A stretch of DNA of 64,000 bases from assembly GCA_036396535.1 (NCBI GenBank), contig DASWKR010000002.1, positions 21,827 through 85,826 on the forward strand. Direction: 5' to 3'. The stretch comes from Acidimicrobiia bacterium (GTDB lineage: Bacteria; Actinomycetota; Acidimicrobiia; Spongiisociales; UBA5794). Made by a program: the position numbers and the translations under genes. Shown here in pieces: positions 39,447 to 58,169 of this stretch; positions within the stretch are counted from its first letter, which is position 1; every line of letters begins with the position of its first letter. The notes below the pieces were generated by a model, which was given only the letters and a program-made list of their open reading frames with translations, did no database searches and was not told the origin of the DNA.

Positions 39447-39475
39447 GGTCCGGCCCTCCAGACTCTGATCTCTGG

Positions 39476-39584: not shown

Positions 39585-39596
39585 GCAATCGTTTGA
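39585..39596. promoter_or_regulatory. imperfect LacI-type operator
   Basis: GCAATCGTTTGA shares the CAAnCGTTTG core with the palindrome at 39476, with one mismatch in the left half. It lies 46 bp upstream of the aminohydrolase start, so each divergent gene has its own site. Confidence 0.5.
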
Positions 39597-39642
39597 AATG
39601 AGATTGCCGTTCGTCACGGAGCGTCACCACGGGAGGGAGCCG

Positions 39643-40992: not shown

Positions 40993-42078
40993 TCACGAGC
41001 CAGGACCCGCACCGGCCACTCGCGTGAGCGAAGCCGAGCCGACGCGGCGTGTCGATTCCCGGACGACGAACGTCGGGGGGATGATGATGTCCTCGGCATC
41101 GTGACCCGCCAGCAACTGCAAGACGACCTCGCCGACGCGCTGGCCGACTTCGAGGCTCGGGTAGCGGACGGTCGTCAGCGGGGGAGAAAGCAGCCCGACC
41201 ATCGGAAGGTCGTTGTAGCCGACGAGTGAGACGTCCCCCGGCACACGCAGGCCCGCCGAGCCGAAAACCGAGAGGGCCCCGATCGCCATCAGGTCGTTGT
41301 GGGCGAACACCGCCGTCGGGAGCTCGTCGACCCGGTCGACGAGCTGCTCCGTGAGGCGCTTGCCCTCCGAGATGATCGGCCGGCGGGCCTGGTCGCCCAG
41401 CTCGATCTCGTCGACCCCGTGAGCTCGGCACACTCGCGAGAAGCCCATGGCGCGGCGGGCGAAGTTCGCCACGTCGTCGGGTCCCCGCAGTTGCGCCACC
41501 CGGCGGTGCCCCAACTCGACGAGGTGCTCGGCCGCCGACTCGCCTCCCATCACGTCGTCCTGCACGACCTGGCGCAGGACGGTCTCGTCGAGCGGCCGCG
41601 CTGCGATGACCACGGGAATGATCCTGCCAGCAGACTCGAGGATCTCCTGGTCGTCGGCGCGGGCCGATATCGCGACAACCGCGTCGACCCTGCGGCTCAG
41701 CATGTGGTCGAGGATGTTCTTGAAGCGGGCGTGGTCGTCCAGGGTCTCCGCCACGATCGCCAGCATTCCCGCTCCTTCGATCGAGCCGGCGACGCCATGG
41801 ATGATCGGGGTGACGAAGGTGTTCCCCAGGTCGGCGACGACGATGCCCACCGTGGCCGTGCGCCCGCTCTGGAGCCATCTCGCAACCATGTGGGGTCGGT
41901 ATCCGAGGCGGCCGGCAACGTCGATGATGCGCTGCCGGGTCGACTCCTTGACCTTGAAGTCCCGGGCGGGGTCGAGTGCCCGAGAAACGGTCGACGCATG
42001 GACGCCGGCCTCTCGCGCCACGTCGTGCAACGTGACGGTGTCTTTCTTGCTGTGATCCTGTGACACGATCACCGCCAT
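40993..42078 (-). CDS. LacI-family transcriptional regulator (A)
   Basis: A 361-residue repressor. The helix-turn-helix VAREAGVHASTVSRAL is at residues 20-35, the hinge helix contains RLGYRPHMVARWLQSGRT, and the periplasmic-binding-like effector domain runs to the end (TVGIVVADLGNT, VFAHNDLMAIGAL, VSLVGYNDLPM). A sugar or a related small molecule would be the effector. It converges on the aminohydrolase with a 3-bp gap and is downstream of the dehydrogenase at 42203 and LacI B, probably one transcript. It is a candidate to bind the GCAAACGTTTGC sites. Confidence 0.92.
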   Translation of the reverse strand: MAVIVSQDHSKKDTVTLHDVAREAGVHASTVSRALDPARDFKVKESTRQRIIDVAGRLGYRPHMVARWLQSGRTATVGIVVADLGNTFVTPIIHGVAGSIEGAGMLAIVAETLDDHARFKNILDHMLSRRVDAVVAISARADDQEILESAGRIIPVVIAARPLDETVLRQVVQDDVMGGESAAEHLVELGHRRVAQLRGPDDVANFARRAMGFSRVCRAHGVDEIELGDQARRPIISEGKRLTEQLVDRVDELPTAVFAHNDLMAIGALSVFGSAGLRVPGDVSLVGYNDLPMVGLLSPPLTTVRYPSLEVGQRVGEVVLQLLAGHDAEDIIIPPTFVVRESTRRVGSASLTRVAGAGPGS

Positions 42079-42202
42079 ATGCTCGATCGCCGGTGAGTCC
42101 TCGCTCGTCGCCGGCTCTCCGGCTCAGCTGCGGCAGGAGTGACCTCGAGCCGCACGGACCGAAAGGCATCATAGGTGGCCCTCGTGGGCGTCCCCAGACC
42201 GC

Positions 42203-43081
42203 TCAACGCTCCGCTTCGATCCTCCGCATCGCCTCGATCACGAAGCCGAGGTCCTGGCCACCCCATCCTCGCGAGATCATGTCACCGAGGACTCGGCGCG
42301 TCGTCACCCCCTGCGGCATCGAGGTTCCGGCCTTCTCCGCCGCTTCGAGCACCAGATCGATGTCCTTGGCGGCCAGGTCGAGGGTGAACGTTATCGGGGT
42401 GTTCTCCGGGTCGAGGTACTGCGGTTTGCGGTAGCGGACCATCGGGGCGCCGGCCGCGCTCCGACCGACGATGTCGAGCACGGTCTCGGCAGGGACGCCG
42501 GACGCCTCGGCGAGGACGACCGCCTCGGCGAGTGCCTCGTTGAGGCCGTAGAGGATCGAGTTCACGGCGAGCTTCAACGTCGCCGCCGAGCCGGCGGGCC
42601 CGACGAGCTCCGGGCTGCCGATCGCCGCGAGGACGGGCGCGACTCGATCGAAGAGCTCGGGCGTACCGCCGACCATGATCAGGAGCGAGCCCTCGGCCGC
42701 GGCGGGCGTGCTCCCCGACACAGGCGCGTCGACGAGGTGGGCGCCCTTCTCCTCGACCCGGGGCCTGAGCCCGTTCACGACGGATGGCCCGGAGGTGCCC
42801 ATGTCCACCGCGACGGAATCGGGGCGCAGCCCTGCGAGCACACCGTCGTCGCCGTCGTAGGTGTCGAGGAGGGCATCGCCGTCTGCCAGCATGGAGATGA
42901 CGATGTCGCAGCGGTCTGCGAGATCGCGGGCAGTCGCCGCCATCTCGGATCCCTCGACGCGGCAGAACTCCTCCGCCACAGAACTGGTCCGGTTGAACAC
43001 GACCAGGTCGTGGCCGGCGCGCCCCACGTTGCGCGCCATGTTGCTCCCCATCCTCCCGAGGCCGATGAAGCCTACAGCCAC
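42203..43081 (-). CDS. NAD(P)-dependent beta-hydroxyacid dehydrogenase family protein
   Basis: A 292-residue dehydrogenase. The nucleotide loop is GFIGLGRMGSNMARNV, the substrate motif is DAPVSGSTPAA, and the catalytic Lys is in GSAATLKLAVNSILYG. The last Gly-rich part matches 3-hydroxyisobutyrate/2-hydroxy-3-oxopropionate reductases. GTG 43081 has AGGAG nine bases before it. It sits between two LacI genes on the same strand, which suggests control by them. It is only distantly similar to the paralogue at 32408. Confidence 0.9.
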   Translation of the reverse strand: MAVGFIGLGRMGSNMARNVGRAGHDLVVFNRTSSVAEEFCRVEGSEMAATARDLADRCDIVISMLADGDALLDTYDGDDGVLAGLRPDSVAVDMGTSGPSVVNGLRPRVEEKGAHLVDAPVSGSTPAAAEGSLLIMVGGTPELFDRVAPVLAAIGSPELVGPAGSAATLKLAVNSILYGLNEALAEAVVLAEASGVPAETVLDIVGRSAAGAPMVRYRKPQYLDPENTPITFTLDLAAKDIDLVLEAAEKAGTSMPQGVTTRRVLGDMISRGWGGQDLGFVIEAMRRIEAER

Positions 43082-43226
43082 GTCAATCTCCTTTCGATGT
43101 GCCGTGCCAACCGATCTGGCAGGTGTAGCGATTCGATCGGTGTGAGGGCCGCCAAACGCTGCAACCCCTGCACACCATTGCGGATCAGTGCATCCTCCCC
43201 GATGTAAGCCTCGTCCCCGATGGCGG

Positions 43227-44354
43227 TCAATCCTCCGGCGGGTAGCCGCCCACTGGGGCGGAGGAGCCCCGCACGACCAGGCTCGGTGACAGCGTCAGGT
43301 CGGTGACCTCGATCGTCTCGTCCTCGGAGAGCGACACGGCCATCTCCGCGGCGAAGCGACCGAGCTGATATCCGGGGAGGCGGACCGTCGTGAGTGGCGG
43401 TGACGTGAATTCGGTGAGCTGCAGGTCGTCGTATCCGACGATCGACATGTCCTCAGGGCATCGCACCCCGGAGTGGGAGAGGCGATCGAGCGCTCCGACC
43501 GCCATGAGGTCGTTCTCGGCGAAGAGAGCCGTGGGCCGCTCCTCGAGCAACAGTATGTGCCCGGCCAGCCGCCTGCCCTCCTGGATCGACGGGTCGGCGG
43601 CCTCGTCGTCCAGGTCCACGAGCTCGGCGCCCGCCGCCTCGATCGCCTCCCGGAACCCGTCCGTCCTTCGCTCGAAGGACGACACTCCGGAGGGTCCACG
43701 CAGCAATGCGATTCGGCGATGGCCGAGCTCGACGAGGTGGGCGGCCACGAGCCGGGCGCCGAGCACGTCGTCCGGCGCCACCGTCCTCAGGTCGGACCCG
43801 GGCAGCGACCGGTCGGCGAGCACCACCGGGACTCTCCGATATGCCTTGTTGAGCACCGCCTCGGTGCCGTTCCTCGCCGCGGTCGTGATGATGGCGTCGA
43901 CGCTCCGGCTGAACAAGTGGTTGAGGACTCGCCCCATACGATCGATGTCGTCCTGCGTCTCCGCGATGAGCGCCATGATTCCCCGACCCTCGAGGGCGTT
44001 CTCGATTCCTCGCACGATCTGGCCCGTGTAGGGATTGCCGAGGTCGGCAACGATCACGCCCATCGTCTGCGACCGTCCTTGCCGGAGGGTCCGGGCGGGG
44101 ATGCTCGGCTCGTACCCGAGCTCGGCCGCCTTGCGGACGACCCGCGCCCTCGTGGCGTCCGAGACCATGGCGGACTTCTCGTCACTGAGCGCTCGCGAAA
44201 CGGTCGCCGGGTGGACCCCGGCATGGGCTGCGATCTCGCGGAGGGTCACCCGCGGTGTGTAGCGGACGTCGTCGAGGAGATCTTCAGGCGGCTCACCGTT
44301 GTTCCCGTCCGTTGCCAGCTGGTCCTCCGTGACGCCCGGCGCTTCATCAGGCAT
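43227..44354 (-). CDS. LacI-family transcriptional regulator (B)
   Basis: A 375-residue repressor with an unusual acidic N-terminal extension of about 35 residues (MPDEAPGVTEDQLATDGNNG) before the helix-turn-helix (TLREIAAHAGVHPATVSRAL), then the effector domain (MGVIVADLGNPYTGQIVRGI, TALFAENDLMAVGALDRL, MSIVGYDDLQLTEF). ATG 44354 is chosen because upstream sequence overlaps the divergent control region. It shares many positions with LacI A and may recognise similar operators. The palindrome at 44448 lies about 92 bp upstream, allowing autoregulation. Confidence 0.9.
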   Translation of the reverse strand: MPDEAPGVTEDQLATDGNNGEPPEDLLDDVRYTPRVTLREIAAHAGVHPATVSRALSDEKSAMVSDATRARVVRKAAELGYEPSIPARTLRQGRSQTMGVIVADLGNPYTGQIVRGIENALEGRGIMALIAETQDDIDRMGRVLNHLFSRSVDAIITTAARNGTEAVLNKAYRRVPVVLADRSLPGSDLRTVAPDDVLGARLVAAHLVELGHRRIALLRGPSGVSSFERRTDGFREAIEAAGAELVDLDDEAADPSIQEGRRLAGHILLLEERPTALFAENDLMAVGALDRLSHSGVRCPEDMSIVGYDDLQLTEFTSPPLTTVRLPGYQLGRFAAEMAVSLSEDETIEVTDLTLSPSLVVRGSSAPVGGYPPED

Positions 44355-44445
44355 GTCGACCGATTCTAGGAAAGCATCTCGGGGCGTGTCGTCCCTTCCG
44401 GTGCAGGCGGTTTTGCCGGATTCGGCGGCGAGGATAAAGTTCGCC

Positions 44446-44459
44446 TTCAAACGTTTGCA
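44446..44459. promoter_or_regulatory. LacI-family operator with perfect core CAAACGTTTG
   Basis: A 10-bp perfect palindrome (44448-44457) between divergent LacI B and the zinc alcohol dehydrogenase (start 44518). It has the same core as the site at 39476. Confidence 0.65.
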
Positions 44460-44517
44460 TGCGGCGCGACGTCCCCTGTCGGACCGGGACGCCACAACGA
44501 CACCGAGAGGACACGAC

Positions 44518-45609
44518 ATGCGCGCCGCGGTGTATCACGGGCCTGGAGACATCAGGCTCGAAGAGCGGCCGGAGCCGGCCATAGGCGATGGTGAGCTGCT
44601 GATCGAGGTGCTGGCGGCGGGGATCTGCGGCACCGATGTCGGGGAGTACCGGCATGACCCGATGTTCTTCCCCGTCGAGGAGGGGCACCCCATCACCGGG
44701 CATCGAGGTCCGACCATCCCCGGCCACGAGTTCTCGGGACGGGTAGCCGGTGTCGCCGCCGACGTCGCCGGGTTCTCGGTCGGGGATCTCGTGACGTGTG
44801 GTGCGGGCGTCTCATGTGGCGAGTGCCCGCCGTGCCTCGCAGGCAGGACGAACATGTGCCTGCGCTACTGGACCGTCGGACTGCACAGGGACGGAGCCCT
44901 CGCCGAGTTGGTGGCGGTTCCGGCTGGGTGCTGCCTCAACCTGGTGGGGCGTTCGATCACCCCGGACGTCGCAGCACTGGCGCAGCCCCTGTCGATCGCG
45001 GTTCACGCCACTCGCCGCGGCGCTCTCGAGGCGGATGACGTTGCCGTCGTGCTCGGCGCCGGGGGGATCGGCACGTTCATAACACATGCGGCCGCCAGTC
45101 GAGGGGCCCGGGTCGTGGCGGTCGACCTCGACGCCGGCCGGCTCGAGACTGCCGCCGCAGTCGGGGCATCTGCGACGGTGCGCGCCGAGCGAGGCGCAGA
45201 CCTCGCCGCCCTCGTCGGCGACACCGTGCCGAAGCCGAGCATCGTGTTCGAGTGCACGGCGACCGAGCCGGTGCTCGCCGCCGCCCTCGAGCTCGTGGCC
45301 GACAACGGCAGAGTCGTCGTCGTCGGACACCAGCCACGACCGGCCACCTTGAACTTCAAGCTGCTCACGTTTGGTGAGAAGACCCTCATCGGGACGATGG
45401 CCCACGTGTTCTCGGCAGACTTCCCGACGGCCGTCGACTTGCTCGAGAGCGGCGGAGAGCAGTGGCGCAGTGTCGCTCCGACCGTCTACCCCCTCGATGA
45501 GCTTCTCACGTCCGGGATCGAGCCGATGGCATCGGGCACGCAGTCGCAGATCAAGACGCTCTTCTCGCCGCACACCCGAGCGGCACGCCCCCTCGAGGTC
45601 AGGGCGTGA
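44518..45609 (+). CDS. zinc-dependent medium-chain alcohol/polyol dehydrogenase
   Basis: A 363-residue enzyme similar to butanediol, sorbitol or threonine dehydrogenases. The catalytic zinc Cys is in AAGICGTDVGEYR, with His and Glu in IPGHEFSGRV. Structural zinc Cys residues are in CGAGVSCGECPPCLAGRTNM. The nucleotide loop is VVLGAGGIGTFITHAAASRG. ATG 44518 has GAGAGGA upstream. It is probably controlled by the LacI site just upstream. It converges on the next dehydrogenase. Confidence 0.88.
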   Translation: MRAAVYHGPGDIRLEERPEPAIGDGELLIEVLAAGICGTDVGEYRHDPMFFPVEEGHPITGHRGPTIPGHEFSGRVAGVAADVAGFSVGDLVTCGAGVSCGECPPCLAGRTNMCLRYWTVGLHRDGALAELVAVPAGCCLNLVGRSITPDVAALAQPLSIAVHATRRGALEADDVAVVLGAGGIGTFITHAAASRGARVVAVDLDAGRLETAAAVGASATVRAERGADLAALVGDTVPKPSIVFECTATEPVLAAALELVADNGRVVVVGHQPRPATLNFKLLTFGEKTLIGTMAHVFSADFPTAVDLLESGGEQWRSVAPTVYPLDELLTSGIEPMASGTQSQIKTLFSPHTRAARPLEVRA

Positions 45610-45728: not shown

Positions 45729-46832
45729 TCACATCGCGATGACGGCGCGACCCCGGATCTCTCCGTGTTCGAGGAGGTCGTATGCCTCGGCGGTCTGCTC
45801 CAGTGAGAAGGTCCTGGTGACCGTGGCGGCCGGCCTGATCCTGCCGAGCTCCGCCATCCTCACGACCTGCGGCATGTCCCGGCGAACCCTCCCGCCGTAC
45901 GAGCCCATCACCGTGATCGCTCTGCGGACGATCCGCGTGATCTCGATCGGAGCCTGGGCGCCCTTGGCCCCGATTCCGACTGCGACGAAGCGGCCGCCGT
46001 CCCGCACCATCTCGGTCCCCTGCACGAACGTCTGCGGGAGGCCGATGGCCTCGAACGCCACATCGACGCCCCCGTCCGAGAGCTCTCTGACGGCTTCCAC
46101 CGGGTCGGTCATGCTGGCGTCGACGGTGTCGCTCGCCCCGTTGTCCCTGGCGTGCGACAGTTTGTCGCTTGCGACGTCGACGGCGATCACCTGAGATGCT
46201 CCGAAGGCGGCGGCAAACTGGACGATCCCGGAGCCGACGCCGCCGGTCCCGATGACGGCGACCCGTTCGCCGGCGACGACCTGGCCGCGATGGCGGACGG
46301 CACCGTAGGCGGTGAAGAAGGCGCAGCCGAGGATGGCCGACTCGGTCGCCCCGGCGTCGGCGGCGCGTCGGAAAGCCGCCGTCGCAGGGGTCACCGCGTA
46401 CTCGGCGAGACCCGCCATCGAGTACATGGCCAGCTTCGACCCGTCGGGTCTCGTCAGCCGGCTCGTCCCGTCGTAGAGCGTCCCGTTCAATCGATTCATC
46501 GCGAAGAACGTCTCGCACAGATCGTCGCGGCCCTCGCCGCAGTACCGGCACGTGCCGCACGGCATGATGAAGCTGGTGACGATTCTGTCTCCCACCTCGA
46601 CCTGGCCGACGTCGTCTCCCAACTCCAAGACTTCCCCAGCCACCTCATGGCCGAGCACGCACGGCGTCGGGAACGCAACGTCACCCTTCATGACGTGCAG
46701 GTCGGTGTGACACACGCCACACGCCTCGACCCTGATGAGGATCTCTCCCCTCTTGGGCGAGGGGATCGGGATCTCTTCGATCTCGACGGGTCGTCCCGGC
46801 TCGGCGAGGACGGCGGCCCGCATCAGATCCAC
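45729..46832 (-). CDS. zinc-dependent alcohol dehydrogenase
   Basis: A 367-residue class of alcohol dehydrogenase with catalytic zinc in EACGVCHTDLHVMKG and LGHEVAGEV. Structural zinc is in FIMPCGTCRYCGEGRDDLCE, and the nucleotide loop is AVIGTGGVGSGIVQFAAAFG. The start is GTG 46832, four bases after the stop of selenoprotein A, so it belongs to the operon with that protein and its binding lipoprotein. It may oxidise an alcohol or reduce an aldehyde formed by the selenoprotein step (inference). An ATG nine bases later is an alternative start. Confidence 0.88.
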   Translation of the reverse strand: MDLMRAAVLAEPGRPVEIEEIPIPSPKRGEILIRVEACGVCHTDLHVMKGDVAFPTPCVLGHEVAGEVLELGDDVGQVEVGDRIVTSFIMPCGTCRYCGEGRDDLCETFFAMNRLNGTLYDGTSRLTRPDGSKLAMYSMAGLAEYAVTPATAAFRRAADAGATESAILGCAFFTAYGAVRHRGQVVAGERVAVIGTGGVGSGIVQFAAAFGASQVIAVDVASDKLSHARDNGASDTVDASMTDPVEAVRELSDGGVDVAFEAIGLPQTFVQGTEMVRDGGRFVAVGIGAKGAQAPIEITRIVRRAITVMGSYGGRVRRDMPQVVRMAELGRIRPAATVTRTFSLEQTAEAYDLLEHGEIRGRAVIAM

Positions 46833-46836: not shown

Positions 46837-48498
46837 TCATCTCCATTCGTCGACCGAGGCGATGTGCCTGTCGGTCGGCCTCCGGAAGCGAACGTCGAGC
46901 GGCTCGCCGTTGAACGAGCTCCACTGGCCGTTGCTCGATCCCCCCGTGACCACGATGGCGATCTGGTGGGGCTGGAAGGTTGGCAGCATCTCGTCGGGAG
47001 GCGCCGTCATGTACGAGGCGTACGGCTCGATGCCCAGCTCGGCCGCCTCGCGCGTGAACGTCTTCGCCGTGTAGCTGTCCCAGTACACGTCGGCTCGGAC
47101 GCGCACGTTCTCGTGGACCCAGTCGATGAGGTTCTCTTTCGTGTCGAAGCCGAGGCCTTTGAACTCGTTGGCGACGATCGGGTCCATGACGAGGATCGTT
47201 CCCAGGAACGGGTCCTGGCCACCGAGCATCGCCTTGATCTTGTCCTGCCAGGTGGCGCGCAGGCCCTCCGTCCAGTTGTTGCCCCAGACGTAGAAGGTGC
47301 TGACCGTGCTCTCGTCCGGGCGGAAGCCCTGCTGGACGTGATACGGCTCCCACGGGCTGGCCTCCTCGTTCTCGGCGAATGTGAGGCTGTTGTATGCGAA
47401 GTTGTTCCCCTGGGAACCCATGTAGGTCTCGCCGGGTACGGAGCCGCCCTGCAGGTTCTGCGACAGCAAGCTGTACGCCCTGCCGATCGTGGCGTTGGCC
47501 TGGTTGTACGGTCCCAGCGCGCCGAGGCCCATGTTCATGCCGATCTCGTGCCTGATGGGTCCGTTGACGACGACCATCGACGCAGACGACGACGTGGTGC
47601 TGTTCCTGGCCGAGATGCCGGTGGAGGCGAGTGCCAGGATGACGGGGAAGTACGACGGCTCTGCCCCTGCCATGACGGCGTTGACCGCCACCTTCTCCAC
47701 CGTGTACTCCCACAGCTCTCGATACGCAGTGGCGCGCAACTGGCCCACGACCTCGTCCCGCCGGCGGCTCGTGCCCGCCAGCATCGCCTCGACCCTCTCC
47801 TCGGTCGGGAGGACGACGGGCAGGTAGTCGGTCCAATGGCTCTCCCGGAACAACCGCTGCAGGTTGTCCTCCGTGGCCGGCTCCACGAGGCGCGGTATCG
47901 AGCGATCGAATCCGACTCCCCGCAACTCGTCGGCATCCAGCGGCTTGGTGAGCAGCTCGGCGAGCATGTCCGCGAACGGCCGCTTGCGAACGGGATCGTC
48001 GCCGTCGATGTACGTGCGCAGCTCTGCGGCGGACTTGTTGAGCACCGGGGTCGGGACGAACGCCCTTCTGGCGCCTGGCATGCCGTTCACCTTGACGACG
48101 GAGTCGACGAGGCGCGCGAACACGTCTGCGTGCACGCCGATGCTCGGGACCCCGTACTCCGTTTCCAGTGTCATCGTGTGGCCGGAGACCTCCGGCGCGC
48201 ACGTGCTTCAGAGGCCGACACCGAGGATGGCTGCGTCACCCTCCGTCCTGATCTGATCGGAGAGCTCGGGGTCGGGAAGGTGCTGGTTCCGCCACTTGGC
48301 GAGCTTCGTGCGAACGCCCGGGTGGCGCTCGCCGAACCACGACTGGAGCTGGACCATGAAGTTGTCCGAGTTCTCGAACCCGACGTCGACGAGGAAGATC
48401 GTCTTGCCGTCGAGCTCGTCGAGGGAGGGCGCCAGGCCCTTGGCGAGCACCTTCGGCGGATAGCCCTCGGGATTGAGCACTGTCAATTTGCCCGACAC
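46837..48498 (-). CDS. UGSC-like selenoprotein A (TGA read as Sec at residue 97, USTC motif)
   Basis: One frame from GTG 48498 (GGAGGAATCGA site) to 46837 gives 553 residues if the TGA at 48208-48210 is read as selenocysteine. The junction reads GDAAILGVGL-U-STCAPEVSGH, followed by GVPSIGVHADVFARLV, the pattern of UGSC-family (seleno)proteins. Without readthrough, the second part would need an ATG at 48174 that has no ribosome-binding site. The Cys three residues after Sec is the only Cys in the protein, so U97/C100 is the sole redox pair. The large C-terminal part (about residues 115-553) has no recognised fold. Conserved stretches include HEIGMNMGLGALGPYN and SSNGQWSSFNG. It is expressed after lipoprotein A and before an alcohol dehydrogenase. 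Probably a cytosolic reductase or eliminase. Confidence 0.8.
48175..48203 (-). promoter_or_regulatory. SECIS-like hairpin of selenoprotein A
   Basis: On the coding strand, GCCGGA pairs with TCCGGC around the loop GGTC. Beyond a bulge, CGTG pairs with CACG below. The loop begins 17 nt after the TGA and starts with GG, within the range known for bacterial SECIS; the E. coli fdhF loop also contains GGTCT (from memory). The same hairpin is found in paralogue B. Confidence 0.65.
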
Positions 48499-48537: not shown

Positions 48538-49593
48538 TCATCCCTCCGGGTCCTGCCAGATCAGCTGGTTCATGCTGGGCAGATACCCGAGCCAACCGTA
48601 GGCGAGCATGCTGTTGCCCATCGACGTCATCGACTCCTCGGGGATCTCGCCGGCGAACGTCGGCAGGGCGAGATCCGCCACTTGCTCGGCGGTCAGGGAC
48701 GTGATCTCCGGGACCTTGGCTCGAACGATGGCGTCGTTCGCCTGGGCGAACTCGCTCGCCTCTGCCATGGCGGCCCTGAAGCGCCGCATGGTCTCCGGCT
48801 CGTTCTCGGTCTGCTCGATCGACGAGATCCACACGCCTGCCGGAATCGCATAGCCGAGCTTGGCGTATGGGTTCCCGAGGGTGCGGAAGGCGAACTCAGC
48901 CTTGAACTGGCTCAGGAACGGCTCTTGGATCACGATGGCGTCGACTCGTCCGGAGTCGAGCAGGGCGCCGAGGTCGGGCTGCTGGCCTGGGATGGCTTCG
49001 ACCGTCATCCAGTCCCCGCCGTCGCTCTCCACGGCGCTGAGCGTCCCGAGGTGGAACAGTCCCTGCAATGCGACGGCGTTCACGGTCCTGCCGGCCAGGT
49101 CCCCGAACGTCTCGATGTCACTGTCCTCTCGCACGAGGATCTCGGTGTTCCCCTCGGTCGGGCTGATGGATCCTCCGGAGACGATCTTGATCGGCAAGCC
49201 GTTCGAGATCCCGGTCACCGCCTGGGTCGCAGACGTCGTGGCGATGTCGGCACTGCCGCTCGTGACCGCCGAGACGAGCCCCGGTGAGGAGAAGATCTCC
49301 TGCAGGGTCACGTTGAGGCCGTGCCTCTCGAATATCCCCTCGTCGAGCGCCACGTACATCGGGGCGAAGTCCAGGATCGGGATGAGCGCCACCGTGATGT
49401 CGATGGCCTCCATTGGTGCCTCGGTCGTGGTCGTGGTCTCGCCGGCCGCAGTCGTTGACGGTGCACCCGTCGTCGTCGTGGGAGCCGCGGTCGTCGACGA
49501 CGCAGCCGGCGCCGTCGTCGTCGTCTCGGCAGACCCGCCACACGCGCTCGCGATCAACATCGCGAGCACCAATCCGATAGCTCTCTTGGACAT
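48538..49593 (-). CDS. NitT/TauT-type substrate-binding lipoprotein A
   Basis: A 351-residue lipoprotein: lipobox IASACGG (Cys 18), a Thr-rich linker (about residues 22-58), then an NMT1-like binding domain (ALIPILDFAPMYVALDEGIF, GLNVTLQEIFSSPGLV, GRVDAIVIQEPFLSQFKAEF). ATG 49593 has GAGGAGGG upstream. It precedes selenoprotein A by 39 bp. No permease or ATPase is in this operon, so it may share the transporter at 49801-52235. Its promoter carries the 44-nt LacI-type element also found before lipoprotein B, its paralogue. Confidence 0.85.
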   Translation of the reverse strand: MSKRAIGLVLAMLIASACGGSAETTTTAPAASSTTAAPTTTTGAPSTTAAGETTTTTEAPMEAIDITVALIPILDFAPMYVALDEGIFERHGLNVTLQEIFSSPGLVSAVTSGSADIATTSATQAVTGISNGLPIKIVSGGSISPTEGNTEILVREDSDIETFGDLAGRTVNAVALQGLFHLGTLSAVESDGGDWMTVEAIPGQQPDLGALLDSGRVDAIVIQEPFLSQFKAEFAFRTLGNPYAKLGYAIPAGVWISSIEQTENEPETMRRFRAAMAEASEFAQANDAIVRAKVPEITSLTAEQVADLALPTFAGEIPEESMTSMGNSMLAYGWLGYLPSMNQLIWQDPEG

Positions 49594-49644: not shown

Positions 49645-49688
49645 TGCAACGCTCCGCAAACCGTTGCGGCGCATTGCTAGCGTTTGCA
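49645..49688. promoter_or_regulatory. 44-nt duplicated control element (copy A) with LacI-type half sites
   Basis: Contains GCAAACCGTTGC (49656-49667) and GCTAGCGTTTGC (49676-49687), spaced 20 bases start to start. The whole 44-nt block matches 56143-56186 with two substitutions. It lies 52 bp upstream of the lipoprotein A start. Tandem sites on the same face of the helix suggest cooperative binding by a LacI-family dimer or tetramer. Confidence 0.65.
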
Positions 49689-49800
49689 TCGTAACCATGG
49701 CGAGTCGCCCCCGTCAACGGCTAACAGCCTGTGGCGGCGTGAGAGGCGACGATGGTTGGGTGGGTGGCTGCGCAGCGCACCGGCTGCCGGTTGCCAGCCG

Positions 49801-50583
49801 TCAGCTCGGTTCGGTCTCGGCGCGCTTGATGAGCCGGAAGACCTGGCCTCTGAGGTGGGCGAACTCCGGAAGCTCGCGGGTGGCTGCCTGGTCGCGAGGC
49901 CTCGGTAGCGAGACCGGCACGATCTCCCGGACGGTCGTCGGCCGCTTGTCGAGCACGACGATGCGGTCCGCGAGATACACGGACTCGTCGATGTCGTGGG
50001 TCACGAACACGACGGTGATCCCGAACCGGGCGTGCACGCTGAGGACCAGGTCCTCGAGGTCGCCCCTCGTCTGGGCGTCGACGGAGGCGAACGGCTCGTC
50101 CATGAGCAGGATGCGAGGCTGGTAGGCCAGCGCCCTGGCGATGGCGACGCGCTGCTGCATCCCGCCGGAGAGCTGCCATGGGTGGTGGTCTCTGAAGTCG
50201 GTCAGCCCGACGGCCTCGAGAGCTTCCGCAGCCCTCTCGGCGCGCGCCGGCTTGCCGACCCCATTGGCGAGCAGCGGCAGGGTGACGTTCTTCCAGACCG
50301 TCATCCATGGCAGGAGCGAGCGGCTGTAGTCCTGGAACACGAGAGAGAGAGCGTCCGGGGGCCCGACCACCTGCTCGCCTGCTAGGTACGCCGCTCCTGC
50401 CGTGGGCGCCATCAGACCGGAGAGGCACTTCAGCAGGGTCGTCTTGCCGCAGCCCGAGGGCCCGACGATGCACAAGAACTCGCCCGTCTCGACCTCGAAC
50501 GACATCTCCCTGATGGCGAGCACGGCGTCCGGGCCCGTCCCGTACGCCTTCTGCAGCGATCGAACCTCCAGCTCCGCGGTCAT
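49801..50583 (-). CDS. NitT/TauT-type ABC importer ATPase (selenoprotein operon B)
   Basis: A 260-residue ATPase. Walker A is GPSGCGKTT, the Q-loop is VFQDYSRSLLPW, the signature is LSGGMQQRVAIARA, Walker B is LLMDEPFASVD, and the switch is FVTHDIDESVYL. ATG 50583 is adjacent to the permease stop. It is the last gene of the operon SBP-selenoprotein-TrxR-permease-permease-ATPase. It is the only ATPase near the two selenoprotein loci, so it probably serves both binding proteins. Confidence 0.92.
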   Translation of the reverse strand: MTAELEVRSLQKAYGTGPDAVLAIREMSFEVETGEFLCIVGPSGCGKTTLLKCLSGLMAPTAGAAYLAGEQVVGPPDALSLVFQDYSRSLLPWMTVWKNVTLPLLANGVGKPARAERAAEALEAVGLTDFRDHHPWQLSGGMQQRVAIARALAYQPRILLMDEPFASVDAQTRGDLEDLVLSVHARFGITVVFVTHDIDESVYLADRIVVLDKRPTTVREIVPVSLPRPRDQAATRELPEFAHLRGQVFRLIKRAETEPS

Positions 50584-51372
50584 TCATTGACCTCCATGTG
50601 TCTCGAGCTCCGAGGCTCGCCACCCTCTGTGCCACCGCAGGATCCTGCGCTCGGTTGTCACGAAGATCAGGTTCACGGCGTATCCGAGCAGTCCGAGCAT
50701 GAACACCCCGGCGTACATCTCGGACGTGCGGTACGTGGCCTGGGCGAAGATGATGAAGAAGCCGAGCCCGTCGGTTCCGGCGAACATCTCGGAGAAGGCC
50801 ATGACGGCCAGGGCTACCGCCAGGCTGGTCCGCAGCCCCGCAAAGATCTGTGGTGTCGCCGCCGGGAGCGTGATGCGGAAGATCTCGTCGCGCCGGCGCA
50901 GTCTGTAGGCACGAGCCATCTCGAGTTGCTGCTGATCGACGCCGCGCACTCCATCGATGGTGTTGAGGAGCACCGGGAACGTCGACGCGAACGTGATGGC
51001 GACGATCTTCATCCCGTCCCCGAAACCGAGCAGGATGATCATCACGGAGATGATGGCGGGCGCCGGGATCGACCTGAGGAAGTCGATCGTCGGCGCCGTT
51101 GCCCTCCTCGCCGGGCGGTAGAGCCCGAGCACGACGCCGAGGGACGTGCCCACGATGGCGGCGAGGATGAAGCCGACCCCGAAGTTCAGCAAGCTCGGGA
51201 CCACATACTCGTTGATGTTCTCGACGGTCCAGGTCTCCTTGAACACCTGGACCAGATGCTTGAGGGGCGGAAAGAACGGCGACGTGGTGTCGAGGCTCAG
51301 GAACCACCAGGCGGCGAAGAGTGCGATCGGGGAGGCGATCTCCACGGCGAGCAAGGAGGACCGCCTGCTCAT
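50584..51372 (-). CDS. NitT/TauT-type ABC importer permease (selenoprotein operon B, second)
   Basis: A 262-residue SsuC-like permease with about six helices: FILAAIVGTSLGVVLGLYRP, and the EAA loop MARAYRLRRRDEIFRITLPA. ATG 51372 overlaps the preceding TGA as ATGA, so translation is coupled. It forms a channel with the next upstream permease. Confidence 0.9.
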   Translation of the reverse strand: MSRRSSLLAVEIASPIALFAAWWFLSLDTTSPFFPPLKHLVQVFKETWTVENINEYVVPSLLNFGVGFILAAIVGTSLGVVLGLYRPARRATAPTIDFLRSIPAPAIISVMIILLGFGDGMKIVAITFASTFPVLLNTIDGVRGVDQQQLEMARAYRLRRRDEIFRITLPAATPQIFAGLRTSLAVALAVMAFSEMFAGTDGLGFFIIFAQATYRTSEMYAGVFMLGLLGYAVNLIFVTTERRILRWHRGWRASELETHGGQ

Positions 51373-52235
51373 ACCGTCGCCTCCTTCACCTGGGACGGGT
51401 GCCACCGCAGCAGCCACCGCTCCATCCGCGAGAAGCTCCAGGCGATGGTGATGCCGAGGAGTCCGCTCATCACGATCATCGAGTACATGCGCGGCAGGTT
51501 GAGGGCGTATTGGGCCCTGATGATGTTGTTTCCGAGCCCCGGCAGTCCGACGACCATCTCGGTGCCGACGACGAGCAGCAGTGCGATCGAGGCCGACAGC
51601 CGCAGCCCGGTCGCGATGTACGGGGCGGAGCCCGGCAGCTTCACGAAGAAGAACGTGATCACCTTGCCGAGCCGGTATGCCCTGGCGGTGTCCCTGGCGA
51701 CCGGGTCGACGTCCTGCACGCCGTACATGGTTTGGAAGAACAGAGGTGAGAACGAAGCCAGCGTCGCGATGTAGACCTTCAGTGTGAACCCGATCCCGAA
51801 GACGAGCATGAAGACCGGGAGGATCGCGATCGACGGGATCGGCCTGATGAAGTCGACGATGAACCGAGTCGATCGGTAGACGTACACGTTCGAGCCGACG
51901 ATGATGCCCAGCGGCACGGCGAGCAGGATGGCGAGGCCCAAGCCGAGCGCCCAGCCCCTCAGGGTGTCGAAGACCGCGATCCAGAACTCGCTCGTGGTCA
52001 TCTCCTCGACGAGTGCCCGGAAGATCGTCGACGGAGCCGGGAGGAAGCCCGTCGAGATGATGCCGCCGCGCACCAGCAGCTCCGCCACCGTGACGATGCC
52101 GAGCGTCCCGAGGATCGGCAACGCCCACCCGCGGTCGCGCTCCGACGGCGCGGTTGCGGGCAGGGCTGCCTCGGCCTCTATCTGACCGATGTCATGGTCG
52201 ATCGCGGTGACCTGAGCGTGGTTCGTATCTGACAC
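51369..52235 (-). CDS. NitT/TauT-type ABC importer permease (selenoprotein operon B, first)
   Basis: A 288-residue permease: an N-terminal cytosolic stretch of about 35 residues, then about six helices with AILLAVPLGIIVGSNVYV and the EAA-like loop AYRLGKVITFFFVKLPGSAP. The start is GTG 52235 with GAGAGGA upstream, 10 bp after the thioredoxin reductase stop. Confidence 0.9.
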   Translation of the reverse strand: MSDTNHAQVTAIDHDIGQIEAEAALPATAPSERDRGWALPILGTLGIVTVAELLVRGGIISTGFLPAPSTIFRALVEEMTTSEFWIAVFDTLRGWALGLGLAILLAVPLGIIVGSNVYVYRSTRFIVDFIRPIPSIAILPVFMLVFGIGFTLKVYIATLASFSPLFFQTMYGVQDVDPVARDTARAYRLGKVITFFFVKLPGSAPYIATGLRLSASIALLLVVGTEMVVGLPGLGNNIIRAQYALNLPRMYSMIVMSGLLGITIAWSFSRMERWLLRWHPSQVKEATV

Positions 52236-52245
52236 GACCGTCCTC

Positions 52246-53184
52246 TCAGCCCAGGCTTCCCGGCCAGGGCTCGCCCGCCAGGTAGCGGTGGGCGGTCACG
52301 GCGGCCGTCGCCCCGTCGCCTGCGGCGGCAACCGCCTGGGCAGCGGACTCGCTGCGGATGTCGCCCGCTGCCAGCAGTCCGCCCAACGCCGTTCTCATCC
52401 GGGCGTCCGTCGGGATCCTCCCGTGGTGATCCAGGGCGAGCTCGGCCGGCAGGAAGGAGGAGTTCGGCTCGCTGCCGACGTACACGAACAGCCCGCCGAG
52501 CTTCACGTCCTCGGCATCGCCTCCTGATGTGGCGCGGCACCGCACGCCCTCGACGGCGGCCGCGCCGAGGATCTCGTCGACCACCGTGCTGAAGCGGACA
52601 ACGATCTTGCTGTTCCCGAGCACCCTCGTCTCGTACGTGCTCTGGCCGGAGAACGCCGGGCCGCGATGGAAGAGGACGACTTGGTCGACGTGCCCGGTCA
52701 ACTCGATGGCCTCTTGGAGCGCCGAGTCGCCTCCCCCGACCACCCCGACGACCTGGCCGCGGTAGAGCGGGCCGTCGCAGCTGGCGCAGTGGCTGATGCC
52801 ACGTCCCGTCAGCTCCTCCTCGCGGTCGAGTCCCAGGGTGCGGGGGCGCGATCCCGACGCCACGACCACGGCACCAGCCGACAGCTCTCCGGCCGGTGTG
52901 GTCATCGACCAGGCTCCTCCCGACTGGGAGAGGCTCGTCACGTCGGCCATCTCGAAAGCGGCGCCGGCACTCATCGCCTGATCCTGCACCGAGGGGCACA
53001 GATCGAATCCCGCTACGCCCTCCGGGAAGCCCGGGAAGTCCTCGATGGCGGAGATGTTGAGGAGCTGGCCTCCCGGCAACCCGCCGTTGAGGATCACGAC
53101 ATCTCTCCCGTTGCGTGCCGCGAAGAGACCGGCAGTGGCGCCGGCGACTCCGCCTCCGATGATGGCGATCTCTCTGTCGGGCAC
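52246..53184 (-). CDS. trxB: thioredoxin reductase (NADPH, CxxC flavoprotein)
   Basis: A 312-residue FAD enzyme. The FAD loop is IIGGGVAGATAGLFAARNG, the redox motif is SHCASCDGPLYRGQ, the NADPH loop is VGVVGGGDSALQEAIEL, and the C-terminal FAD contact is GLLAAGDIRSESAAQAVAAA. It moves electrons from NADPH to a dithiol or selenol-thiol partner. GTG 53184 is preferred because GGAG lies 6 bases before it; the TTG at 53190 is too close. Its place between selenoprotein B and the importer genes suggests that it reduces the Sec-Cys pair, directly or through a thioredoxin. No thioredoxin gene is adjacent. Confidence 0.9.
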   Translation of the reverse strand: MPDREIAIIGGGVAGATAGLFAARNGRDVVILNGGLPGGQLLNISAIEDFPGFPEGVAGFDLCPSVQDQAMSAGAAFEMADVTSLSQSGGAWSMTTPAGELSAGAVVVASGSRPRTLGLDREEELTGRGISHCASCDGPLYRGQVVGVVGGGDSALQEAIELTGHVDQVVLFHRGPAFSGQSTYETRVLGNSKIVVRFSTVVDEILGAAAVEGVRCRATSGGDAEDVKLGGLFVYVGSEPNSSFLPAELALDHHGRIPTDARMRTALGGLLAAGDIRSESAAQAVAAAGDGATAAVTAHRYLAGEPWPGSLG

Positions 53185-53262
53185 CGTCAACTCCCTCGTC
53201 TCGGCGGCGCCCTCTCCGGCAGGCGTCTCAACTGACCGGGGCGATGCCCCCGGCCGGCATCG

Positions 53263-54927
53263 TCAACGCCACGGCTCGATCGAAACCGTCACCGGGTCCG
53301 ACGGCTGGTTCCTGAACCTCGGGTCGAGTGGGCGGCCGTTGAACGAGCTCCACTGCCCGTTGCTCGAGCCGCCGACGACCACGACATTGATCCTGTCCTT
53401 CTCAAACGACGGTATGAGCTCTTCGGGGCCGGCAGCCAGGTAGGAGGCGTACGGCTCGACACCCTGTGCCGCGACCTCCTTCATGAGGTTGCGCATCGAG
53501 AAGGTCTCCCAGTAGCGCTTTGCCGGGATCCGGACGTTCTCGTGGATCCAGTCGATGAGCTCGTCCTTCGTGGCGAATCCGAGCTGGTGGAACTCCTTGG
53601 CGACGATCGGGTCCAGCACGAGGATGCAGCCGAGGTAGGGGTCCATGCTCCCCAGCATCGCCTTCACCTTCTCCTGCCACGTGCTGCGGAGCCCCTCGGT
53701 CCAGGTGTTCCCCCAGACGTAGAAGCTCGTCACGGTGCTCTCGTCCGGCGCGAAGCCATGTTGGACGTGGAGCGGGTCCCACGGACTGTTCTCCTCGTTC
53801 TCCGCGAACGTGACGCTGTTGTACGCGAAGCTGTTCCCCTGCGCTCCCATGTACGTCTCGCCGGGCACCGAGCCGCCCTGCACGTTCTGGGAGAGCAGCC
53901 CATACGCTCGGCCGATGGTGGCGTTGGCGTGGTTGTAGGGCCCGAGCGCGCCGAGACCCATGTTCATTCCGATCTCGTGCCTGATCGGGCCGTTCACCAC
54001 CACCATGTTCGCCATGGAGGACGTGCTGCTCTGGCGGGCGGTCAAGCCGGTCGATGCCAGGGCGAGGATCACGGGGAAGTACGCCGGGTCGCCGCCTGCC
54101 ATGACCGCGTTGACGGCCACTTTCTCCACCGTGTACTCCCAGAGCTCCCGGTACCCGGTGGGGCGCATCCGGCCGACGACCTCGTCGGGCCGCCGGCTCG
54201 TGCCGGCGAGCATGGCTTCGACGCGCTCCTCGGTCGGCAGCACGATGGGCAGGTAGTCCGTCCACCCTCGTTCCCGAAAGGCGCGGTGGAGGTCCTCCTC
54301 CATGTCCGGCTCCACGAGGCGGGCGGTCGAGCGATCGAAGGAGACGCCCCTGAGGTCCTCCATGGGGACCGGATCGGTGAGCGAGTCGATCACGACGGAC
54401 ATGAACGGCCGCTTGCGGTACGGGTCGTCTCCTTCGACGTACGCTCGCAACTCGCCCGGCGTCTTGTTGAGGACCGGGGTCGGGACGAATGCCCGCCTGG
54501 CGCCCGGCATGCCGTTCACCTTGACGACGGAGTCGACGAGACGAGCGAAGACGTCGGCGTGCACCGCAACCGTGGGCACCCCGTAGTCGGCTTCCAATCG
54601 GATCGCATGACCGGAGACCTCCGGCGCACACATGCTTCAGAGGCCGACGCCGAGGATGGCGGCGTCGCCCTCCGTGCGGATCTGATCGGACAGCTCGGGG
54701 TCCGGCTGATGCTGGTCACGCCACTTGACCACCCTCGTTTCGGTCTTGGGGAGGTGCTCCGAGAACCAGCCCTCGAGCTGGTGGGCGAACACGTCGCAGT
54801 TCTCCCAGCCGATGTCCACGAGGAAGACCGTCTTGTCGTCGAGCGAATCGAGCGCGGGCGCCAGACCCCTCGCCGTAATCGTCGGTGGGTATCCCGTTGG
54901 GTCGAGGACACTCAGCTTGCTCGACAA
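53263..54927 (-). CDS. UGSC-like selenoprotein B (TGA read as Sec at residue 97, USMC motif)
   Basis: A 554-residue paralogue of selenoprotein A, starting at TTG 54927 with AGGAGG upstream and reading through the TGA at 54637-54639. The junction is GDAAILGVGL-U-SMCAPEVSGH, followed by GVPTVAVHADVFARLV. Sec falls at residue 97 as in A, and Cys 100 is conserved, whereas the two other Cys (in ENCDVF and LGCILV) are not. Long blocks match A on both sides of the TGA (SDQIRTEGDAAILGVGL; GGSVPGETYMG; TEGLRSTWQEK). This makes a chance stop in both genes very unlikely. The operon context (binding protein upstream, thioredoxin reductase and importer downstream) points to reductive processing of an imported compound. 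The substrate is unknown. Confidence 0.82.
54605..54635 (-). promoter_or_regulatory. SECIS-like hairpin of selenoprotein B
   Basis: On the coding strand, GCCGGA pairs with TCCGGT (one G-T pair) around the loop GGTC. Outside a TGTGC bulge, GCATG pairs with CATGC. The loop starts 17 nt after the TGA, exactly as in paralogue A. The lower stem pairs in both genes although its sequence differs. Confidence 0.65.
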
Positions 54928-54968
54928 GGCAGGCCTCCTGGCGTCGGCTCAGTGGTTTCCGGCATGGC

Positions 54969-56027
54969 TCACAGGTCGGCGATGATCTGAGTCGGGCTCG
55001 GGATGTACGTCATCCAACCGTAGCCGAGCATCTTCTCCAACATGGCGAGCAGACCCTCCTCGTTGATCTCCGTCGCGTAGTCCGGCAACGTGATCGTGCC
55101 GAGCTGGTCCGGCTCGAGGTCGGTGTACGTCGGGATCACCCCGAGAAGCAGGTCCGGGTTCGCCAGCGCGTACTCCGTCGACTCGGCCAGAGCCTCCTTG
55201 AACCGGCGCAGCAGCTCCGGCTTCGCCTCGGCGGTCTCGATCGACGTCCAGAAGTTGCCGACCGGGAGCTGGAACTCGAATGCGCTGAACGGGTTGCCCA
55301 GCACCCTGAAGTCGTACTCGGCCTTCGTGAGCGCCAGGAACGGGTCCTGGATGACGATGGCGTCGACTCTGCCCGCCTCGAGCGCGGGAGGGGCGTCGGT
55401 GGGGCTGTTCGGCAGGGAGTTGACGCTGGCCGGATCGCCGCCCTCGGACTCCACTGCGAGCAGGACCCCGAGGTGAAAGAGGCCCTGCAGGTTGATCGAC
55501 ATGACGTCTGCGCCCTCGAGGTCGATCCAGTTCTCGATGGGGCTGTCCTGGCGCACGAGCACCTCGGTGTTGCCCTCGATCGGCTGGTTCGAAGCGAGGC
55601 TCACCAGCTTGAGGGGGAGCCCGTTCGTGATGGCGACCGCCCCGGACGTGAGCGAGTTCGTCGCCAGGTCCTTCGAGCCGCTCGTGATCGCCGAGAAGAG
55701 CCCGGTGCCGGTGAAGATGTGCTCCACGTTGACGTTGAGCCCGTGCTGCTCGAAGATCCCGGCCTCGAGGCCGACGTAGAACGCCGCGTAGTCGAGAGAC
55801 GGGAACAGCGCGATGTTGAGGTCCATCATCTCGATGGGCGCCGCCGTCGTGGTCGTTGTCTCACCGGCCGCCGTGGTCGTCGTCTCGCCGGCCGCCGTCG
55901 TGGTCGTTGCCGCCGGAGCCGTCGTGGTGACAGCCGCCGTAGTTGTCGTCGCATCGCCCGACCCGCCGCACGCGCTGGCGATGGCCAGCAGCGCGAGGGA
56001 GATGGCGATGATGCCCTTCCTCGACAT
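54969..56027 (-). CDS. NitT/TauT-type substrate-binding lipoprotein B
   Basis: A 352-residue lipoprotein: lipobox AIASACGG (Cys 20), a Thr/Ala-rich linker to about residue 64 that includes a duplicated AAGETTTT unit, and a binding domain (ALFPSLDYAAFYVGLEAGIF, GLNVNVEHIFTGTG, GRVDAIVIQDPFLALTKAEY). ATG 56027 has GAGGAGGG upstream. It is the first gene of a six-gene operon ending with the ATPase. It is a clear paralogue of lipoprotein A. Differences around the presumed ligand pocket suggest a different but related ligand. Confidence 0.87.
   Translation of the reverse strand: MSRKGIIAISLALLAIASACGGSGDATTTTAAVTTTAPAATTTTAAGETTTTAAGETTTTTAAPIEMMDLNIALFPSLDYAAFYVGLEAGIFEQHGLNVNVEHIFTGTGLFSAITSGSKDLATNSLTSGAVAITNGLPLKLVSLASNQPIEGNTEVLVRQDSPIENWIDLEGADVMSINLQGLFHLGVLLAVESEGGDPASVNSLPNSPTDAPPALEAGRVDAIVIQDPFLALTKAEYDFRVLGNPFSAFEFQLPVGNFWTSIETAEAKPELLRRFKEALAESTEYALANPDLLLGVIPTYTDLEPDQLGTITLPDYATEINEEGLLAMLEKMLGYGWMTYIPSPTQIIADL
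55848..55895. repeat. two 24-bp direct repeats in the lipoprotein B linker
   Basis: Two units of 24 bp differ at two positions, each encoding AAGETTTT in the linker of lipoprotein B. Such in-frame repeats change linker length by slippage and probably vary between strains. Confidence 0.75.
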
Positions 56028-56142: not shown

Positions 56143-56186
56143 TGCAACGCACCGCAAACCGTTGCGGAGCATTGCTAGCGTTTGCA
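56143..56186. promoter_or_regulatory. 44-nt duplicated control element (copy B) with LacI-type half sites
   Basis: Contains GCAAACCGTTGC (56154-56165) and GCTAGCGTTTGC (56174-56185) with the same 20-base spacing as copy A at 49645, differing at two of 44 positions. It lies between the divergent lipoprotein B (start 56027) and the luciferase-like gene (start 56260), so it could control both. Confidence 0.65.
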
Positions 56187-56259
56187 CTCTAAGGCTGACG
56201 GTATCAACGCGTCAACAGGTCCGGCGTGCGATGCTGCGGGAGTTCGAAGGAGGAACAGC

Positions 56260-58099: not shown

Positions 58100-58169
58100 C
58101 CGATGGGTTCCTCTCGATCGCTGGAGACCATTCTTGCAGCTACATGCTCACGTTTGCAGGCTTGAGACG

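Follow-up and report, generated by a model that had tools for sequence, protein, structure and literature searches.

A predicted selenoprotein of the UGSC family encoded with a thioredoxin reductase-like flavoprotein and an ABC importer in an acidimicrobial genome

The window analysed here, a 64,000-nucleotide stretch of contig DASWKR010000002.1 from an Acidimicrobiia bacterium, carries a run of nine minus-strand genes, read from 56027 down to 45729, that includes two predicted selenoproteins of the UGSC family. In order, the genes encode a solute-binding lipoprotein (SBP1), a first UGSC protein (UGSC1), a flavoprotein resembling thioredoxin reductase (TrxR), two permeases and the ATPase of an ATP-binding cassette (ABC) importer, a second lipoprotein (SBP2), a second UGSC protein (UGSC2) and a zinc-dependent alcohol dehydrogenase (Zn-ADH) (Table 1). 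SBP1 and UGSC1 are separated by 41 nucleotides (nt), UGSC1 and the TrxR-like gene by 72 and the latter and the first permease by 10; the permeases overlap by 4 nt and the ATPase follows with a gap of 0. The gap between SBP2 and UGSC2 is 39 nt, and Zn-ADH begins 4 nt after UGSC2. A preliminary description of this DNA had listed six tightly spaced genes from SBP1 to the ATPase; all are present and profile searches assign their families, but the run does not end at 49801, as was supposed, and continues with SBP2, UGSC2 and Zn-ADH. The start of SBP2 at 49593 is the likely one by reading, its open reading frame opening at 49698.

Table 1. Features of the gene cluster and its surroundings (positions in the window)
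Feature	Position	Strand	Remarks
SBP1, NMT1/THI5-like solute-binding lipoprotein	54969..56027	-	PF09084 66.7 bits
UGSC1, predicted selenoprotein, U97-S-M-C100	53263..54927	-	PF24696 81 bits, residues 7-165
In-frame TGA of UGSC1, predicted selenocysteine codon	54637..54639	-	SECIS-like hairpin within following 30 nt
TrxR-like flavoprotein reductase, CASCDGPLY active site, HRRxxxR absent	52246..53190	-	Pyr_redox_2 123 bits
ABC importer permease 1	51369..52235	-	PF00528 (BPD_transp_1) 67 bits
ABC importer permease 2, likely start 51372	50584..51372	-	PF00528 77 bits, scored on 50584-51399
ABC importer ATPase, nitrate/taurine type	49801..50583	-	PF00005 (ABC_tran) 118 bits; TIGR01184 214 bits, below cut-off
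SBP2, second NMT1-like lipoprotein	48538..49593	-	PF09084 74.5 bits, scored on 48538-49698
UGSC2, second predicted selenoprotein, U97-S-T-C	46837..48498	-	PF24696 70.6 bits
In-frame TGA of UGSC2, predicted selenocysteine codon	48208..48210	-	SECIS-like hairpin follows
Zn-ADH	45729..46832	-	PF00107/PF08240
Promoter-like box before SBP1, TTGACG, 18 nt, TAGAGT	56186..56215	-	consensus match only
Promoter-like box before SBP2, TTGACG, 18 nt, TACGAT	49688..49717	-	consensus match only
LacI-type palindrome beside -10-like box of SBP1	56173..56186	.	pattern scan
LacI-type palindrome beside -10-like box of SBP2, letters identical to SBP1 site	49675..49688	.	pattern scan
LacI-type palindrome, divergent start region of LacI regulator (43227-44519, -) and Zn-ADH (44299-45609, +)	44446..44459	.	
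Two LacI-type palindromes (39475, 39584), divergent start region of M24-family gene (-) and amidohydrolase (+)	39475..39597	.	
LacI-type palindrome upstream of luciferase-like gene (57206-58099, -)	58145..58158	.	
Two LacI regulators, 40993-42078 and 43227-44519	within 40993..44519	-	
3-hydroxyisobutyrate-dehydrogenase-like gene between the LacI regulators	42203-43081	-	

What is new, at the level of sequence comparison, is that a TrxR-like gene recurrently stands beside the UGSC gene, and that these reductases form one distinct TrxR group which is split according to whether the partner has selenocysteine (Sec) or cysteine (Cys). Likewise new is a LacI-type palindrome found at the two promoter-like boxes and at four further sites within 19 kb. 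Relatives were scanned in one genome per species, and counts out of 80 refer to the best 80 loci of at least 578 stretches. A TrxR homologue lies within 3 kb of the UGSC gene in 39 of the 80 loci, on the same strand in 38 of them and at a gap below 220 nt in 32 of the 39; where at least 4 kb is available on both sides, it is near in 33 of 55. Counted by clustered families, TrxR is near in 37 loci and far in one (p 5.6e-12). Three more matches lie beyond 3 kb. At L069 and L083 they adjoin a second copy of UGSC, and at L062 the match is found 4 kb downstream, past an ABC set. Thus the tie between a Sec enzyme and a TrxR-like reductase proposed earlier is upheld, and the co-occurrence of these two genes elsewhere, which had been named as the test of it, is found in those 39 loci. 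No description of the UGSC-TrxR pairing was found in the literature searched, a search that did not take in Haft and Gwadz 2023 or Haft and Tolstoy 2025, which may bear on it.

The linked TrxRs, which are those of 42 loci and the window, stand apart from ordinary ones. In a tree of 72 sequences, from which L015 was omitted for its shortness, a branch supported at 100/100 divides 42 linked TrxRs from 30 ordinary ones belonging to the window's class. A second TrxR elsewhere in the window's genome, followed, by reading, by a thioredoxin gene, falls among the ordinary ones, so the enzyme of the cluster is an extra. The linked TrxRs divide by partner into a clade of 24 (Sec) and a clade of 18 (Cys), and the partner tree separates Sec and Cys forms too. 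Distances between TrxRs and between their partners correlate at 0.56 overall, 0.27 within the Sec and 0.32 within the Cys forms (permutation p 0.002, 0.024 and 0.008). Judged from these trees and distances, TrxR and its UGSC partner show long joint inheritance, from which alone physical contact does not follow.

The linked reductases also differ in their motifs. The window protein shares with TrxB the Pyr_redox_2 family and a CxxC, and its closest solved relatives are TrxRs, but with 283 bits it stays below the TIGR01292 equivalog cut-off of 343.45. Of 43 distinct linked TrxRs, 41 have the active site CxxCD[GA]P, as against the CATCDGFF of TrxB, which is found in 28 of 29 ordinary TrxRs of the class and in the genome's own second TrxR. 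In E. coli TrxR the two Phe after CATCDG contact thioredoxin, so their loss fits a changed partner. The TrxB motif HRRxxxR, which binds the 2'-phosphate of NADPH, occurs in none of the 40 linked TrxRs that could be scored (three more were not scored) and in all 30 ordinary ones, which makes the earlier label of an NADPH-dependent reductase doubtful. The linked protein is likely a dedicated reductase that would dock directly on the UGSC protein, possibly using NADH.

The proposed partner of this reductase has two parts, the UGSC domain and an unclassified C-domain of about residues 196-555 in UGSC1. Both window proteins exceed the gathering cut-off of 25 bits of PF24696, and neither reaches the NCBIfam equivalog NF041046 (57.5 and 52.1 bits, cut-off 125). 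The AlphaFold model of UGSC1 (predicted local distance difference test, pLDDT, 89.7; predicted template modelling score 0.89) gives the UGSC domain a Rossmann-like alpha/beta fold that resembles receiver and B12-binding-type domains. The C-domain (pLDDT 85) has no convincing structural relative, and no sequence match of weight in Pfam, NCBIfam or the PDB. Across 38 sequences the only invariant or nearly invariant Cys positions are residues 97 and 100. In the window's class, the fusion query (A1) finds matches at E 1e-30 in 91 of 296 genomes, and in nearly all cases these cover only the C-domain; four full-length C-domain proteins of the class carry, by eye, an N-terminal thioredoxin-like stretch with CxxC, and a thioredoxin model matches weakly (E 0.097) in one of the two scanned. 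A split version, with the C-domain in one gene and UGSC in a separate gene after it on the same strand, the UGSC gene having its TGA in LAD-TGA-GSC, was seen in 6 of 18 regions fetched from other genomes. Being fused in the window and neighbours in other genomes, the UGSC domain and the C-domain point to a single predicted enzyme with two parts.

A fusion of this kind is already in print, and the earlier word undescribed for the system holds only with that limit and within the literature searched. Zhang and Gladyshev noted in 2008 a selenoprotein, UGSC/Unknown_1, in which UGSC is likewise fused to a conserved unnamed domain, and their account leaves its function open (PMC2398784); it is probably the fusion seen in the window, the two being compared by description and not by alignment. 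The passage on this fusion suggests a thioredoxin-like fold, in contrast to the receiver/B12-binding-type Rossmann-like model obtained here, and gives no operon partner or neighbourhood (PMC2398784). UGSC proteins ranked with the most abundant selenoproteins of the aquatic metagenomes surveyed there (PMC2398784), and a 2026 review counts UGSC among the selenoproteins with largely uncharacterised functions (PMC13188914).

That residue 97 is Sec is well supported by sequence comparison, because TGA and Cys exchange at this position, hairpins follow the TGA, and the genome holds a tRNA-Sec gene (72.7 bits), SelB (293.6 bits, cut-off 242) and, adjoining SelB, a gene identified as SelA by reading. 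Within each of UGSC1 and UGSC2 a single in-frame TGA precedes the end, at residue 97 in both. Of the 80 loci, 52 have TGA at this codon, 27 have Cys and one does not cover it, and the UGSC1 TGA aligns with Cys in 5 of 5 Cys-form homologues aligned. The hairpin of UGSC1 that resembles a selenocysteine insertion sequence (SECIS) has a GGUC apical loop. Single-sequence z-scores of the window hairpins are modest (-1.1 for UGSC1, -1.6 for UGSC2); they are unremarkable alone, so the weight rests on comparing the folding of Sec and Cys forms. Over the 39 nt after the codon the mean minimum free energy is -15.5 kcal/mol in 54 TGA rows (the 52 loci and the two window genes) against -8.5 kcal/mol in the 27 Cys rows (p 1e-9). 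A strict hairpin, defined by G at the first two positions of the loop, a stem of four or more pairs and a fitting distance, is present in 38 of the 54 TGA rows, both window genes included, against 3 of the 27 Cys rows. The UxxC selenoprotein of the preliminary description holds as to the in-frame TGA and the UxxC arrangement, the motif being USMC or USTC and not UGSC.

SelB-like genes, named by reading, were found no farther than 4 kb from UGSC in 7 of the 80 loci and at a greater distance in none, and SelA-, SelB- or SelD-like genes are near it in eight (L012, L031, L032, L047, L054, L067, L071, L078). Because such genes stand near the UGSC gene, the Sec machinery of those eight genomes may serve mainly the UGSC enzyme. 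Two thioredoxin/C-domain proteins (L140, L143) have an in-frame TGA in PG-TGA-GS where relatives have Cys in a linker PGCGS, and are a possible further selenoprotein type.

In the window, two lines of evidence tie the importer to the enzyme. UGSC1 and UGSC2 are 71% identical, SBP1 and SBP2 52% over 346 residues. Each lipoprotein gene sits directly before its own UGSC gene (gaps of 41 and 39 nt). Very likely, therefore, the two genes were duplicated together, and the permease/ATPase set and the reductase remained in one copy. Locally, this joint duplication is the best argument for a presumed substrate common to importer and enzyme. Close groups of two or three UGSC-long copies or pieces, like that of the window, were also seen at L012, L048, L069, L083 and L088. 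The best solved relatives of SBP1 are TauA (6ssy, E 3.8e-7), the HMP-binding protein 3ix1 (3.1e-5) and SsuA (2x26, 5.3e-4).

The second line is regulatory. When the cluster was scanned, promoter-like boxes came up twice, against 0.6 expected, immediately ahead of SBP1 and of SBP2; no site resembling a terminator was found. The palindrome TGCAAACGTTTGCA occurs seven times in the window with at most three mismatches, against 0.53 expected, and none of 100 shuffles held as many; with at most two mismatches there are 14 sites genome-wide, six of them at 39475-58158 of the window, within 19 kb, and two genome-wide for a reversed control pattern. As a promoter-like box and a palindrome also precede SBP2, the SBP1 and SBP2 promoters suggest two co-regulated transcription units. 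The two LacI proteins encoded nearby are likely the regulators of this gene set, and the six palindromes would place import, reduction and further catabolism under LacI control.

From these observations we lean, if only slightly, towards an uptake-plus-reduction module in which a compound would be imported and then reduced or cleaved by the UGSC Sec, the Sec-Cys pair being re-reduced by the flavoprotein. The NMT1-type importer with its two binding lipoproteins would bring in a small organic compound, each lipoprotein feeding its own UGSC protein through one common permease/ATPase set. The C-domain would bind the substrate, Sec97 would attack a carbon or heteroatom with a good leaving group, and Cys100 would resolve the intermediate to leave a selenenylsulfide. 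Its direct reduction would fall to the TrxR-like flavoprotein, which would probably need no free thioredoxin and might take its electrons from NADH instead of NADPH. We speculate that a LacI repressor would control import, reduction and later steps together, the last comprising the alcohol dehydrogenases, the amidohydrolase, the M24-family hydrolase and the luciferase-like enzyme. As to import followed by reductive cleavage at a Sec-Cys centre, as first suggested, the tie of enzyme and reductase and the local unit speak for it, and the conservation of the importer and the use of NADPH do not.

The glycine, betaine, sarcosine and D-proline reductases work by reductive cleavage, and the module likely works in a comparable way by analogy, without being a member of the glycine or fluoroacetate reductase type. 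In the glycine reductase type, substrate-specific subunits feed a common reductase (PMC10838667). GrdB, GrdE, PrdA and PrdB likewise include a UxxC Sec protein, and a profile comparison of UGSC with GrdB gave a local match exactly at the Sec, in register (E 1.5e-4, probability 51%, 46 columns), which is suggestive only. The earlier statement that these proteins are unrelated to glycine reductase is thereby made doubtful. The name selenoprotein B given to UGSC1 does not fit, however: family search does not make the UGSC protein (P0001) a GrdB, with no match to PF07355 listed up to E 10. Nor does its C-domain appear related, giving no match of weight in the GrdB profile comparison, and the conserved C-domain Cys that would correspond to the Cys-derived pyruvoyl of GrdE and PrdA is absent in 36 sequences. 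The UGSC genes also stand beside oxygen-using enzymes in some loci, unlike those of the Grd and Prd reductases. The window's phylum also has GrdB-family proteins with their TGA in T-TGA-GTGTR (L150, L153), and PF07355 matches were found in 44 of 198, many only to its C-terminal third.

The nearest working analogue of the window module, in the account consulted, is the fluoroacetate reductase operon farACEB of Cloacibacillus, which combines a transporter with GrdB-like substrate-specific parts, is substrate-induced and is thought to be laterally transferred (PMC10838667). It differs in its MFS antiporter, radical-SAM protein, GrdB/GrdE parts and anaerobic host, and its four genes as described there include no TrxR, in contrast to the window cluster (PMC10838667). 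The Sao system (SaoX, SaoP, SaoA) is a selenium-linked ABC importer which the window binding proteins, permeases and ATPase weakly resemble. Scores against its models NF040735, NF040733 and NF040729 are far below the cut-offs (SaoX 32.5 of 300, SaoP 132.6 of 295 and SaoA 202.6 of 360 bits), and in the window the Sec sits in the fusion enzyme and not in the importer.

Several observations weigh against our reading. A binding protein of NMT1 type lies within 5 kb of UGSC in only 2 of the 80 loci, L011 and L044; at L011 the lipoprotein stands beside UGSC without a TrxR match, and NMT1, TrxR and UGSC were not found as a set in any of the 80. Enrichment of binding proteins near UGSC is weak, and all four query sets include sequences from the same loci, which favours a count as near. 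FbpA-like proteins are near in 11 and far in one locus (p 0.009), TctC proteins near in 14 and far in 7 (p 0.21), and SBP_bac_1-type proteins near in 2 and far in one. In 26 of 80 loci at least one of the four families is represented within 5 kb, and in 10 farther away (p 0.03 for sequence amount); the 54 loci with none within 5 kb include some with short flanks. ABC ATPases as a class are not enriched, being near in 14 loci and far in 15. Turning to the reductase, TrxR is not found within 3 kb in 41 of the 80 loci, made up of 19 of 25 with a flank shorter than 4 kb on a side and 22 of 55 with long flanks. The palindrome pattern was chosen after the promoters had been viewed, so its p-value is a guide only, and contig C57 of the same genome has three sites within about 5 kb (21381-26458). 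Because of these, the palindrome may serve other LacI proteins too, and C57 is perhaps another region on which this regulator or a relative of it acts. Catabolic neighbours of UGSC vary by lineage (malonate, acyl-CoA, PhyH and others), so they imply no single reaction. Finally, the full-length fusion was not found in the other 49 genomes of the window's family, three of which give partial matches, some at contig ends, and in a phylum sample of 396 only the window's genome and one other match it at E 1e-80. Its near-absence from its own family and phylum sample, set against its presence across several phyla, suggests lateral transfer of the fusion.

Coupling of importer and enzyme, as claimed at the outset, is supported for the window, with its duplicated lipoprotein-UGSC pair and common palindrome, and is not conserved for the NMT1 type elsewhere, where the picture is mixed: other binding-protein families are near in some loci and ABC ATPases are not enriched. 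At L062 (Pseudonocardia acaciae) a single strand carries, by reading, UGSC, then an SBP_bac_1 lipoprotein, then a MalK-type ATPase and lastly TrxR; at L069 (Actinomadura chibensis) UGSC, SBP_bac_1-type, MalK-type and TrxR kinds lie within 13 kb on both strands; and at L136 two BPD_transp_2 permeases, a Bmp lipoprotein and an ATPase come after the split system, all on its strand. A constant pair of enzyme and reductase with an exchangeable importer would fit these loci, the importer half being the weaker.

Defence against peroxides and metals often involves a Sec/Cys pair with a reductase, and the UGSC protein and its TrxR-like partner might accordingly be a defence or repair system (a peroxidase, thiol repair or organometal cleavage) beside which the importer came to lie by local island assembly only. 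That the importer type is not conserved speaks for this, as does the mention of the importer parts SaoX and SaoP in a heavy-metal context in a review (PMC13188914). We nevertheless regard it as unlikely, since the lipoprotein and UGSC genes are duplicated as a pair, the palindrome is common to catabolic genes, certain catabolic genes and binding proteins are met again next to the enzyme-reductase pair in other loci, and the Sao scores are far below cut-off. It is more improbable that UGSC is a substrate-specific reductase fed by the general thioredoxin system, with the linked TrxR-like protein serving another partner: the thioredoxin-like part of C-domain proteins of the class and the 41 loci without TrxR within 3 kb would agree with it, but the adjacency, the single linked TrxR group, the matched Sec/Cys split and the altered active-site and HRRxxxR motifs would not. 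Least probable of all is the import of an organic selenium or sulfur compound from which Sec chemistry would free the element for the cell, as hinted by the taurine- and sulfonate-binding relatives of SBP1 and the eight loci with SelA-, SelB- or SelD-like genes, given that the 27 Cys forms pair with TrxRs of the same group, so that the enzyme does not need selenium, and that the binding-protein family changes between lineages.

Extending the uptake-plus-reduction module beyond the window is a more tentative step, which we would sooner doubt than assert. It would make the UGSC proteins widespread modular Sec/Cys reductases of mostly aerobic bacteria, built from UGSC, the C-domain and their own flavoprotein that bypasses thioredoxin and NADPH, with interchangeable importers and catabolic genes; they would then be to aerobes what the amino-acid and fluoroacetate reductases are to anaerobes, with substrates differing by lineage. 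Should the uptake-plus-reduction reading hold, a Sec-based uptake-and-reduction route would be added for environmental bacteria, together with a subgroup of TrxRs that serve another partner and may use another cofactor. The likely dedicated reductase partner, the unclassified domain, the two binding proteins and the regulators with their candidate operators make the function of UGSC directly testable.

Near the cluster, at 35877-38120 and 38193-40989, lie genes for a molybdenum hydroxylase large subunit, an M24-family protein and a PRK08204-type amidohydrolase. The M24-family gene shows a weak likeness to the DMSP lyase DddP (104 of 600 bits), and sulfonium compounds were dropped as a substrate guess for lack of evidence, as were pyrimidines and sulfonates. 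Luciferase-like genes are not enriched near UGSC in the 80 loci. Malonyl-CoA decarboxylase genes are near UGSC in six loci, all of Cys form (L037, L068, L075, L076, L079, L084), and a CoA ligase adjoins them in all but L037; malonate may be a product at these loci, and malonate derivatives as the substrate were set aside likewise.

By record titles, carriers of the fusion belong to Chloroflexi, Rokubacteria, Proteobacteria, Actinobacteria, Acidobacteria and Latescibacterota. Several bacterial phyla also share the pairing of the enzyme gene with that of the reductase, in part of the cases next to importers of other kinds. Metagenome contigs hold closer homologues, up to 86% identical, and 7,788 of 7,998 scored candidates match the fusion protein. 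One UGSC gene with a nearby TrxR match (L039) comes from a record titled as a Klebsiella pneumoniae metagenome-assembled genome, a title that looks wrong for the contig. At L080, a Cys-form UGSC gene has a stop inside the C-domain, which would be a frameshift, a pseudogene or an error.

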